In this document: in pieces, positions 1-2,032 of the stretch
Numbering within the stretch: the first letter of the stretch is position 1
Layout of the letters: each line of letters opens with the position of its first letter
Assembly: GCF_014230085.1 (NCBI RefSeq)
Contig: NZ_JACHVB010000064.1
Span: 1 to 64,000 of the forward strand
Length of the DNA stretch: 64,000 nt
Direction of reading: 5' to 3'
Source of the DNA: Ruficoccus amylovorans
GTDB taxonomy: Bacteria > Verrucomicrobiota > Verrucomicrobiia > Opitutales > Cerasicoccaceae
Made by a program: the position numbers and the translations under genes
The notes under the pieces: generated by a model
What the model saw: the letters and a program-made list of their open reading frames with translations, nothing else
Database searches by the model: none
Told to the model about the DNA's origin: nothing

Positions 1-377
1 AACTATATATAACCCGGAAACGGGGCGTTTTGCCGGGATCCCGCCTCGCCAGCCGCGTCACCACAGGCAGGACGCCGAAGGCTCTGCACAAGGGGTCTCG
101 CAGGGAACCTGCTCCACCCCTTGTGCAGCCTGCCAGGGGGACGCGTAATGCTCGTCAGGCGGTGGCCGAGCCCCGCCTTTTCTTATTTAGAATGGAAGGG
201 GATGAAGGAGAGAACCAAGTGTTTGCAAGACTGAGTATGCTGGGTCGGTCACTGTCTCACTGATGGGTTCAGTCCATCAGGGATAGGCAGGCGGTGGTGG
301 GGGAAGGATGAGATGTTCGATGCTTTTGTAGATTTTGCGCATATCACCCCGGATGAGGTTATTGCGATGGTGCTCCA
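1..377. other. non-coding edge of an accessory patch
   Basis: Apart from a compound hairpin (66-134) and one possible 35-codon reading frame (313-420), I see no gene here. A longer plus-strand frame at 30-263 has no recognisable protein features. The stretch lies downstream of the Rep-like gene and could be the replication or packaging region of the element, but the window edge prevents a judgement. Confidence 0.4.
66..134. repeat. compound hairpin (possible ssDNA origin or structural element)
   Basis: A perfect 13-bp inverted repeat, CTGCACAAGGGGT at 84-96 and its complement at 116-128, encloses a second inverted repeat, GCAGG (100-104) and CCTGC (108-112), around a GAA loop. An outer GGCAGG (66-71) and CCTGCC (129-134) can add a further stem with a bulge on the left side. 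There is no T-tract on either side, so it is not a typical intrinsic terminator. Its position beside a rolling-circle Rep gene makes a single-strand or double-strand origin, or a packaging signal, possible. This role is inference. Confidence 0.55.
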
Positions 378-420
378 CTATGTATTGCATTCTAGAGGTG
401 AGTGGGCCCCATGCCGGTAG
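313..420 (+). CDS. possible 35-residue protein, unknown
   Basis: The frame starts at ATG 313 with a purine-rich GGGGAAGG about six bases upstream, and encodes a short peptide beginning MFDAFVDFAHITPDEVIAMV with a helix-like hydrophobic middle. It converges on and overlaps the 3' end of the Rep gene on the other strand. Small accessory proteins are common in filamentous-phage-like and plasmid-like elements, but nothing here identifies a function, and a chance frame of this length is likely enough that I rate it low. Confidence 0.2.
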   Translation: MFDAFVDFAHITPDEVIAMVLHYVLHSRGEWAPCR

Positions 421-1178
421 TAATTGTCATCGATTCGCCAGCGGATATGGTTAACGATCGCTCGGGTCTGCTTGTGCAGGATACCATCCGTGAACCTGTT
501 GATGAGGTTCATGAGGATGAAGCTCCAGTGCTTGCCCAGCAGGCTTCGCAGTTCTTCAATGGTGCGACATCCCAAGCCATAGGCAGCAAAGTGGGTTGCC
601 TGCCTGCGTGCGCGAGCCCGGGGCGAACACAGGGCAATCGGCCCCTTGCAGACCCTTAGTCCCTTGGAGCAAGACCAGCGCCGGACATGATGGCCCAGCG
701 AAGTTCCAGCCTCCTTGGTCAGGTAGGAGATGAGGGCCTGCATGTCGCAGACCGGGGACATGTTCCAGCGACCAAAGCCATAGGCTTCCATTCTCTTTCC
801 CAGCGTCCGGGAGAGCTGGAGCAACCGCTCGGAGTAGTGCTGCTCGATGACGGACTGGGGGGCCTTCCCGTCAATACCCGAGCGATTGAAGACTTCTTTC
901 CGAGTGTTCCAAGGGAGCAGGAGGACGCAGTGGATGTGGATCTGGCCTGAGAGGTGAGTCTCGAACACTTTGACCCACTCGATATTCTGCTTCCCAAAGA
1001 AGGTTGTCAGCTTGTTGATGGCCTTCCCAAGCGCCTGGAAACCAGTTTCATAGGCAGGAAGTGTAATGGTCAGGAAGAAGAGACGGTCTCTGGGGAATTT
1101 AAGCAGGGACTCCAATGTTATAATGAACTTAATCAACGACTGAGTATTCATGAGGTGGAAATAAGTATCAGAAGACAA
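378..1178 (-). CDS. probable HUH-type rolling-circle replication protein
   Basis: The 266-residue protein shows the three conserved motifs of HUH Rep proteins in the right order. Motif I is FLTITL (35-40), motif II is the metal-binding GQIHIH (79-83, the H-x-H pair), and motif III is YLTK (152-155), whose Tyr152 would attack the DNA strand. The following RRW..SKG stretch is also typical of phage and plasmid replication-associated proteins. It would nick one strand at an origin and start rolling-circle synthesis. The first start is TTG at 1178; an ATG at 1151 gives a protein nine residues shorter, and neither has a clear ribosome-binding site. It lies 28 bp downstream of the HTH-like gene on the same strand, so the two probably share a transcript. 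I could not assign it to a plasmid or a phage (inovirus or microvirus) lineage. Confidence 0.6.
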   Translation of the reverse strand: MSSDTYFHLMNTQSLIKFIITLESLLKFPRDRLFFLTITLPAYETGFQALGKAINKLTTFFGKQNIEWVKVFETHLSGQIHIHCVLLLPWNTRKEVFNRSGIDGKAPQSVIEQHYSERLLQLSRTLGKRMEAYGFGRWNMSPVCDMQALISYLTKEAGTSLGHHVRRWSCSKGLRVCKGPIALCSPRARARRQATHFAAYGLGCRTIEELRSLLGKHWSFILMNLINRFTDGILHKQTRAIVNHIRWRIDDNYYRHGAHSPLECNT

Positions 1179-1206
1179 GAATAGAAAGGGAACGGTTGAG
1201 ATGGGA

Positions 1207-1740
1207 TTACTCGAGTGTTGCGCCGCGTATCCGTCCGGTGGTGCTCATGTCGTGGGCATCCAGTACGCTACCGACATAATGTAGGCGTTCTATTGGATCG
1301 GTTAGTAAGCAGGTTGGGGCAGTCGAGGGAGATATCGTCGCAGAGGGGGGAGGGATTTCTAGAAAGGGGCGATGGACGGCGTAGTGTTTTGCCACCACTT
1401 CCATATCCTTCGGGGTCAGGCGGAGTGGAATGTCATCGGCAGGGCAAATCAGGGCTTCCTCGCTGAGGATGCTTAGGGCTGTAAACAACAACTTTCGCTG
1501 CCAAGCTTGATTATGACGTTCATGCTCTCGTTCAAGTTGCTGGCGAAACTCCTTGAGATCGGCAAGGGGGAGCCCCAAGTTGGCTCGTGTGGCGTTCAGC
1601 TTGTAGTAGCCTTTAACAACTGCCCGTACTAACAGCCCTTTATGGCCCCACTCAAAAAAAGTAGAGTCAGTAAGCTTTAGTCCAAGAGATTCCAACAGTG
1701 TGTCTCTTGTAACAAATATGTCGTCGCTCAGATTGGACAT
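1207..1740 (-). CDS. accessory-element protein, possible HTH regulator
   Basis: I chose ATG 1740, giving 177 residues; an in-frame extension to 1848 would run through the direct repeats and is rejected. Residues about 10-58 look like a winged-helix or MerR-type DNA-binding segment: a helix beginning TRDTLLESLG, then an aromatic recognition-like stretch (FFEWGHKGLL) and a YYKLNATRANLGLP turn. The middle is a charged helix (about 60-90) and the tail is Pro/Thr-rich. It sits between the iteron-like repeats and the Rep gene, as a copy-control or excision regulator would, but I do not recognise the family. Confidence 0.45.
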   Translation of the reverse strand: MSNLSDDIFVTRDTLLESLGLKLTDSTFFEWGHKGLLVRAVVKGYYKLNATRANLGLPLADLKEFRQQLEREHERHNQAWQRKLLFTALSILSEEALICPADDIPLRLTPKDMEVVAKHYAVHRPFLEIPPPSATISPSTAPTCLLTDPIERLHYVGSVLDAHDMSTTGRIRGATLE

Positions 1741-1782
1741 CTTTTTTGCTTTTATGATGCCGAAACATAGCTTCTTTTGGGC

Positions 1783-1810
1783 TAAAAAAAAGGGCTTTTT
1801 TCGATAAGCC
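1783..1810 (-). terminator. intrinsic terminator downstream of tRNA-Pro
   Basis: On the minus strand a GGCTT/AAGCC stem (1806-1810 with 1793-1797) closes an A-rich loop and is followed by C and eight T residues. It lies downstream of the minus-strand tRNA-Pro and just upstream of the HTH-like gene. It could end tRNA transcription or act as an attenuator for the accessory operon. The stem is short. Confidence 0.45.
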
Positions 1811-1818
1811 GTCCCACG

Positions 1819-1890
1819 CGGTTGCCAAAACGGTTGCCAAAAATGCACCGTTTTTTCGGAGTTGCCCGGAGTTGTCTAGGGTTGTCCAGA
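1819..1890. repeat. iteron-like or att-arm direct repeats
   Basis: Two perfect tandem copies of CGGTTGCCAAAA occupy 1819-1830 and 1831-1842. Three imperfect 10-bp copies then follow in exact phase: GTTGCCCGGA (1861), GTTGTCTAGG (1871) and GTTGTCCAGA (1881). All five share a GTTGYC core. Such spacing is typical of iterons bound by replication proteins, or of arm-type sites bound by tyrosine integrases next to a tRNA attachment site. Which of these applies cannot be told from the sequence. Confidence 0.5.
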
Positions 1891-1954
1891 GTGCCCCTGA
1901 AATGCTGGTCGACATTGATGTCTTTGAACATCAGCGTTTTTCAGGATTTATCAG

Positions 1955-2032
1955 TGGTCGGGGTGAGAGGATTCGAACCTCCGACCCTCTGCTCCCAAAG
2001 CAGATGCGCTAACCAGGCTGCGCTACACCCCG
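1955..2032 (-). tRNA. tRNA-Pro (anticodon TGG)
   Basis: Read on the minus strand, the gene has a 7-bp acceptor stem CGGGGTG/CACCCCG, a D-arm, an anticodon stem TCTGC/GCAGA around loop TTTGGGA (anticodon TGG, reading CCA), and a T-arm with GGTTCGAATCC. The discriminator is A at 1958, and CCA is encoded at 1957-1955. The fold is complete, so the neighbouring accessory patch has not destroyed the gene. tRNA 3' ends are common integration sites. Confidence 0.95.

Follow-up and report, generated by a model that had tools for sequence, protein, structure and literature searches.

The window (the whole 64,000-nt stretch of DNA analysed here) starts at base 1 of contig C64 in the 64-contig assembly of the source genome, G000. 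The initial annotation had placed a Rep-like gene beside the window edge; this edge is the edge of the contig. An intact tRNA-Pro(TGG) gene, the integration target, lies at 1955-2032 on the minus strand (Rfam 67.5 bits), as claimed. To its left, on the tRNA's own strand, are five GRCAAC repeats, the small gene c5 and a 266-aa rep gene, followed by a hairpin and the contig end. c5 (1207..1740, minus strand, 177 aa) is the small HTH-like gene of the annotation; the listed ORF extends to 1848, and the start was moved to 1740, a position backed by conservation. GC content was 53.1% left of tRNA-Pro and 62.2% right of it, and the left value was below those of all 240 equal-sized windows.

The five direct repeats (1821..1886, minus strand) read GTTGYC on the forward strand and start at 1821, 1833, 1861, 1871 and 1881. 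The annotation had reported them, and the count is sound: all five fall in one 80-bp stretch, and the best other 80-bp stretch of the 64-kb window has two. The compound hairpin, which lies 3′ of rep, was also confirmed. It is a strong inverted repeat (84..128; arms 84-104/108-128, 86% complementary), and bases 1-180 fold at -55.7 kcal/mol, compared with -36.6 ± 3.3 for shuffled sequences (z -5.9). The hairpin was not shared by the RepD-like element on C35 of the same genome, whose match to the window ends at base 95. It is a candidate replication origin or terminator.

Boundary at the tRNA gene

Right of the tRNA, G002 and G003 could be aligned with the window, the match stopping exactly at base 1955. 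G002 has the same tRNA-LysM-NUDIX order, but carries a serine recombinase where the window has c5 and rep. A search of other genomes of the order turned up no gene closely related to rep. Because the alignment stops at the tRNA in both genomes, G002 differs beyond it, and close Rep relatives are lacking in the genomes searched, rep and c5 are, on these comparisons, acquired DNA. The contrary pattern, with the same genes in all relatives and no boundary, was not what we found: the alignment ended at the tRNA 3′ end, and G002 had other genes there. An empty-site check using the GH130 gene in the C43 flank (see below) gave matches in relatives that were 55-61% identical and on other contigs, and a search for tRNA-Pro near miaB in the other genera examined found none. 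The G002 serine recombinase lies directly after the equivalent tRNA-Pro (L044:6491-8272); thus, this site is used by more than one type of recombinase.

Rep, an Arp-related HUH initiator

The rep gene (378..1178, minus strand, TTG start) encodes a rolling-circle initiator of HUH family, Arp/REP_ORF2-G2P type, with a single catalytic Tyr. Its motifs FLTIT (35-39), HIH (81-83) and YLTK (152-155) aligned with conserved positions of five relatives 25-29% identical to it, all of which share the three motifs. The HUH motifs reported for this gene are therefore borne out by conservation. In a profile search of the 266-residue protein, Pfam PF23343 (REP_ORF2-G2P) gave 24.0 bits (E 4.9e-5), slightly below the 27.8 cut-off; a relative ~30% identical to Rep cleared this cut-off at 41 bits. 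The same relative had weaker RepSA (PF20199, 24.8 bits vs a cut-off of 34) and Phage_GPA matches; the Pfam search gave no PF20199 (RepSA) match for the window Rep. Proteins of 1.3-2.1-kb plasmids aligned with 60-76% of this relative at ~40% identity; in two of these plasmids the protein is annotated as phasyl Arp. Rep itself was ~26% identical to Arp (pairwise BLASTP, 5e-11), and a profile of six Rep proteins matched Arp with an hhalign probability of 100%. Arp is the sole annotated gene of a 1,284-bp "phasyl" plasmid (NZ_CP149236.1); a protein of this type can therefore probably drive replication alone.

AF2 models of Rep and of c12, a gene described below, were of low confidence (pLDDT 50 and 55). 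The Rep model had a better core, with its elements in the HUH order. In PDB comparison of this core the best matches included IS200/IS608 TnpA and SIRV1 ORF119, a Rep; none was below E 0.001. PDB profile searches with the Rep, c12 and c5 sequences gave nothing useful. Pattern scans of genome-contig and viral-contig collections with the window Rep found no relative, because the protein is divergent (26-31% to its nearest relatives). We set aside an IS91/IS200-type transposase identity, because the relatives sit in tRNA elements that carry an integrase, and because no named homologue is nearer than a plasmid initiator. With motif 1, the HUH motif and the catalytic Tyr motif in order, and with homology to an annotated initiator, the 266-aa ORF is, by sequence, an HUH initiator related to Arp.

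The Arp-like relatives outside the window occur in a different class of tRNA element from the c5 family. Four such loci were observed (L141, G001:C1:3029523-3036453; L140, L142 and L144), each with an Arp-like HUH Rep and an integrase-size gene that overlaps a tRNA gene (Glu, Asn, Lys or Met). On testing, three of these four integrase-size genes matched Phage_integrase, and RloB/AAA_21 or Eco57I-type methylase genes were nearby in two loci.

The probable other end of the element and its integrase

A second copy of the tRNA-Pro 3′ part, which the annotation had proposed to look for, is present in the same genome. The own-genome search revealed a 51-bp piece of the same tRNA-Pro on C43, identical in register at 47/47 positions. 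The att core (1953..1999, 47 bp) covers the tRNA from the anticodon loop onwards plus 2 bp after its 3′ (CCA) end, and is repeated exactly within C43:123127-123177. Other tRNA-Pro copies and fragments in G000 matched the core less well. A 33-bp fragment on C21 was rejected as att partner; by eye, it is closer to another tRNA-Pro, on C5. About 100 bases beyond the C43 core, and 165 bp from the contig end, lies the gene for integrase c4, a 469-aa tyrosine recombinase (C43:123276-124685; PHROG integrase, 1.7e-26; lambda Int in PDB, 5e-5). The reading that the element lacks an integrase is thus not supported; one adjoins the second tRNA-Pro copy, on a separate contig.

Matching cores starting near the anticodon loop were found in five elements. 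Four pairs were identical (47/47, 51/51, 52/52 and 53/53), and a tRNA-Thr pair was similar over this part. In G003, which belongs to the same genus, the tRNA end and the integrase end are split between contigs as in G000. The two-contig genome G001 has three cases with both ends on one contig, at tRNA-Lys (~17 kb), tRNA-Thr (~48 kb) and tRNA-Pro (~65 kb, a composite of elements). In view of the 47/47 core match, the weaker match of other copies in G000 and the layouts in G003 and G001, we infer that C64 and C43 carry the two ends of one element. The locus then has an intact tRNA gene, an identical 3′ fragment and an integrase at the att site on the separate contig, as a tRNA-targeted island does. 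In G001 (C1:1009575-1037378; L089, L090 and L047), two elements apparently lie in tandem with separate integrases; one carries a tRNA-Gly fragment, the other a tRNA-Pro fragment.

The same data bear on whether rep and c5 are merely left over in a decayed, immobile remnant. The element end is cut by the contig, and the relative on C35 has a stop inside c5 and just a tRNA fragment; however, rep, c5 and the att core are undamaged here, as is the C43 integrase, and the identical cores suggest recent integration. We consider decay improbable here.

GRCAAC repeats at both ends

GRCAAC repeats flank both att sites. On the c5 side, 11 of 14 elements carried them 116-119 and 128-131 bp beyond the tRNA, and one more element had the first only; GGCAAC at offsets of 116 and 128 bp is the form in most copies. 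On the integrase side, they were ~12 or 24 bp, and once 30 bp, before the integrase start. The c5 side had 28 repeats where 1.6 would be expected, the integrase side 7 where 0.3 would be expected, and at both ends of the elements the repeats pointed in one direction throughout, with a single exception. Because the same motif recurs in the same orientation and at fixed offsets at both ends, we predict that these repeats probably serve as arm-type sites to which the integrase or its excision factor would bind. The conserved offsets from the tRNA make this a direct and testable prediction.

The c5 family

Relatives of c5 showed only weak HTH and excisionase matches. c5 was present in 11 of 273 genomes of the order, the weakest case (G047) being marginal; the copy count (n = 15) takes in the copies examined and leaves out G047. 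In 14 of the 15 copies c5 lies on the strand of the tRNA, 189-257 bp (once 501 bp) past the tRNA gene, and the 15th is beside a tRNA fragment. The target genes were tRNA-Pro, Lys, Thr, Ala and Met, and the tRNA-c5 layout was repeated in at least 10 genomes of this one order. The c5 alignment was too variable for a collection scan, and a query with a single c5 retrieved only G003 itself. c5 is a marker of this element family and is probably an excision factor or regulator. A decaying member of the family is present on C35, where a c5 copy with an internal TGA (L040:1707-2162) lies beside a tRNA 3′ fragment.

In G003, the element side of the tRNA-Pro (L138, G003:C60:1204-9180) carries Cas1, Csd1 (Cas8c) and a Cas3-like gene, i.e., a type I-C CRISPR-Cas system that is probably island cargo.

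Such cargo bears on the claim that the element is a filamentous-phage-like replicon. An integrated filamentous or other ssDNA prophage would account for the REP_ORF2-G2P similarity and weak Phage_GPA similarity of Rep, and Pf phages encode an integrase of their own for insertion at tRNAs (PMC7549136). However, there was no phage match for the window Rep, c2 (a gene of related elements, see below) was not found in viral contigs, and the proteins scanned in relatives included no morphogenesis gene and no Zot-like or coat gene, the left part of the window's own element lying outside the sequence. The relatives are ~17-48 kb long, with cargo that includes restriction, CRISPR-Cas and metabolic genes. 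A prophage is therefore highly improbable, and the claim was not upheld.

A probably exchangeable slot after c5

The gene slot that follows c5 differs among elements. The window's element is the only one with an Arp-like gene there. In five elements (G003, G005, G002, G133 and C35) the slot holds c12 (361-399 aa), and in G001d a BT4734/VirE-type primase-helicase, with two small ORFs in between. No recognised initiator was found in the slot of G009, G161, G001a or G001c; thus, replication is not essential to the family. In the PDB, the c12 model had one significant match, to the staphylococcal initiator of rolling-circle replication 4cwe (E 3e-4); the next was at 0.15. As c12 had no match in Pfam or PHROG, its class is taken from this one structural match, by which it looks like a Rep_trans-like (RepD-like) initiator. 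Judged by gene content, the slot is probably exchangeable between unrelated initiators. In the c5 tree, support of 82/85 joined the window to G005, which has c12 in this position; this grouping is consistent with replacement of the initiator, but is not proof of it.

Beside the slot, most copies have c2, a PD-(D/E)XK nuclease and a DUF932 protein. Window bases 1..95 were 100% identical to C35:418-512, and bases 1-36 recurred in C5 and nearly so in C63. The break of C64 is probably due to this repeat sequence, which is common to other elements of the genome. Comparison of leaders revealed that bases 1-20 are the start of the leader preceding c2 in other elements of G000; therefore, the c2-PDDEXK nuclease-DUF932 module probably continues beyond the left contig edge. 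In most elements, a conserved leader, TTATATAT, stands upstream of c2, and between the two come an inverted repeat, TGATAGCG..CGCTATCA, and a hairpin rich in GC. This region is a possible operator or origin.

The class of c12 also bears on the function of Rep. The HUH protein could be mainly a relaxase that nicks an oriT, the island being mobilised by a co-resident conjugative system in the manner of IMEs, with replication secondary. In streptococcal IMEs, rolling-circle initiator families, including Rep_Trans, are putative relaxases (PMC5704250), and c12 looks like a Rep_trans protein. However, the closest named relatives of Rep are replicons, the best of them (~1.3-2.1 kb) typed non-mobilizable, and no coupling protein or relaxase was found among the proteins scanned in relatives. 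We regard a main role as relaxase as unlikely, though the HUH protein may serve in both capacities.

Proposed model

We consider it likely that an integrative mobile island ends here, this being its tRNA-proximal side, and that the island can excise as a circle and then replicate in rolling-circle mode. The overall reading of the initial annotation thus stands as far as an element end integrated beside tRNA-Pro with a rolling-circle-type initiator; the lack of an integrase and the likeness to filamentous phage are not supported. In our model, the integrase would recombine the two 47-bp cores, with the GGCAAC repeats as arm sites, and c5 would act as excision factor or regulator. The excised circle would be nicked by Rep and replicated by rolling circle, which would keep it from being lost until it reintegrates or is transferred. 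That the island excises and replicates, what c5 does and which sequence forms the far end are here inferred from the gene and site layout.

On balance, we favour the view that this island belongs to an undescribed family of Verrucomicrobiota tRNA islands. In this family, the slot between a conserved HTH gene and (mostly) the c2-nuclease-DUF932 module would be filled by unrelated initiators (Arp-like HUH, RepD-like Rep_trans or primase-helicase), the integration machinery being kept while replication is swapped. Such a family would account for a recurring source of variable DNA in a phylum that has been little studied, restriction and CRISPR-Cas genes among it.

Comparison with known systems

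The initial annotation considered tRNA integration together with a Rep to be an unusual combination. However, an integrase and a replication initiator are joined in AICEs (PMC3218068), Pf phages (PMC7549136) and IMEs (PMC5704250), and Pf phages and many IMEs sit at tRNA genes. Pf prophages resemble the present island in this combination at tRNA genes, but no coat, Zot or other phage genes were found here. IMEs with Rep_Trans share an integrase, a rolling-circle initiator and tRNA or gene 3′-end sites; in contrast, their Rep_Trans examples come from Firmicutes, where a relaxase role is likely, and no oriT or coupling protein was seen here. The Arp miniplasmids of E. coli and Salmonella have a homologous HUH initiator, whereas they are free, 1.3 kb long and without integrase.

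Pseudomonas is known to harbour islands that carry an integrase and an AlpA-type regulator at opposite ends (PMC12595487). These tmRNA/tRNA defence islands have IntY at one end and AlpA at the other, as the present island has an integrase at one end and a putative regulator at the other, and are also alike in direct repeats, defence cargo and the absence of evident transfer genes. We found no mention there of an initiator next to the regulator, and the host group is unrelated.

AICEs such as pSAM2 combine an integrase with alternative replication modules (RepSA rolling circle, RepAM or Prim-Pol) (PMC3218068). They differ from the present island in host phylum, in their initiator (Arp-like here, not RepSA) and in the position of the integrase, which is here at the end away from the intact tRNA. 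The site of pSAM2 itself is a tRNA-Pro. A check for AICE-type replication genes gave, besides the PF20199 results above, the primase-helicase of G001d. The proteins scanned in related elements, which covered most of the complete G001d, included no FtsK/SpoIIIE-type Tra; the window's element is incomplete.

The gene set of the present island matches none of AICEs, Pf phages, IMEs or Pseudomonas islands. We found no description of such a family in Verrucomicrobiota in the open-licence literature. The combination of integrase and initiator is itself known; this island family, in which the replication gene can be exchanged, does not appear to have been reported before. Its modular logic, in which the integrase is kept and the replication gene changed, is that of AICEs, in an apparently unrelated family of elements.
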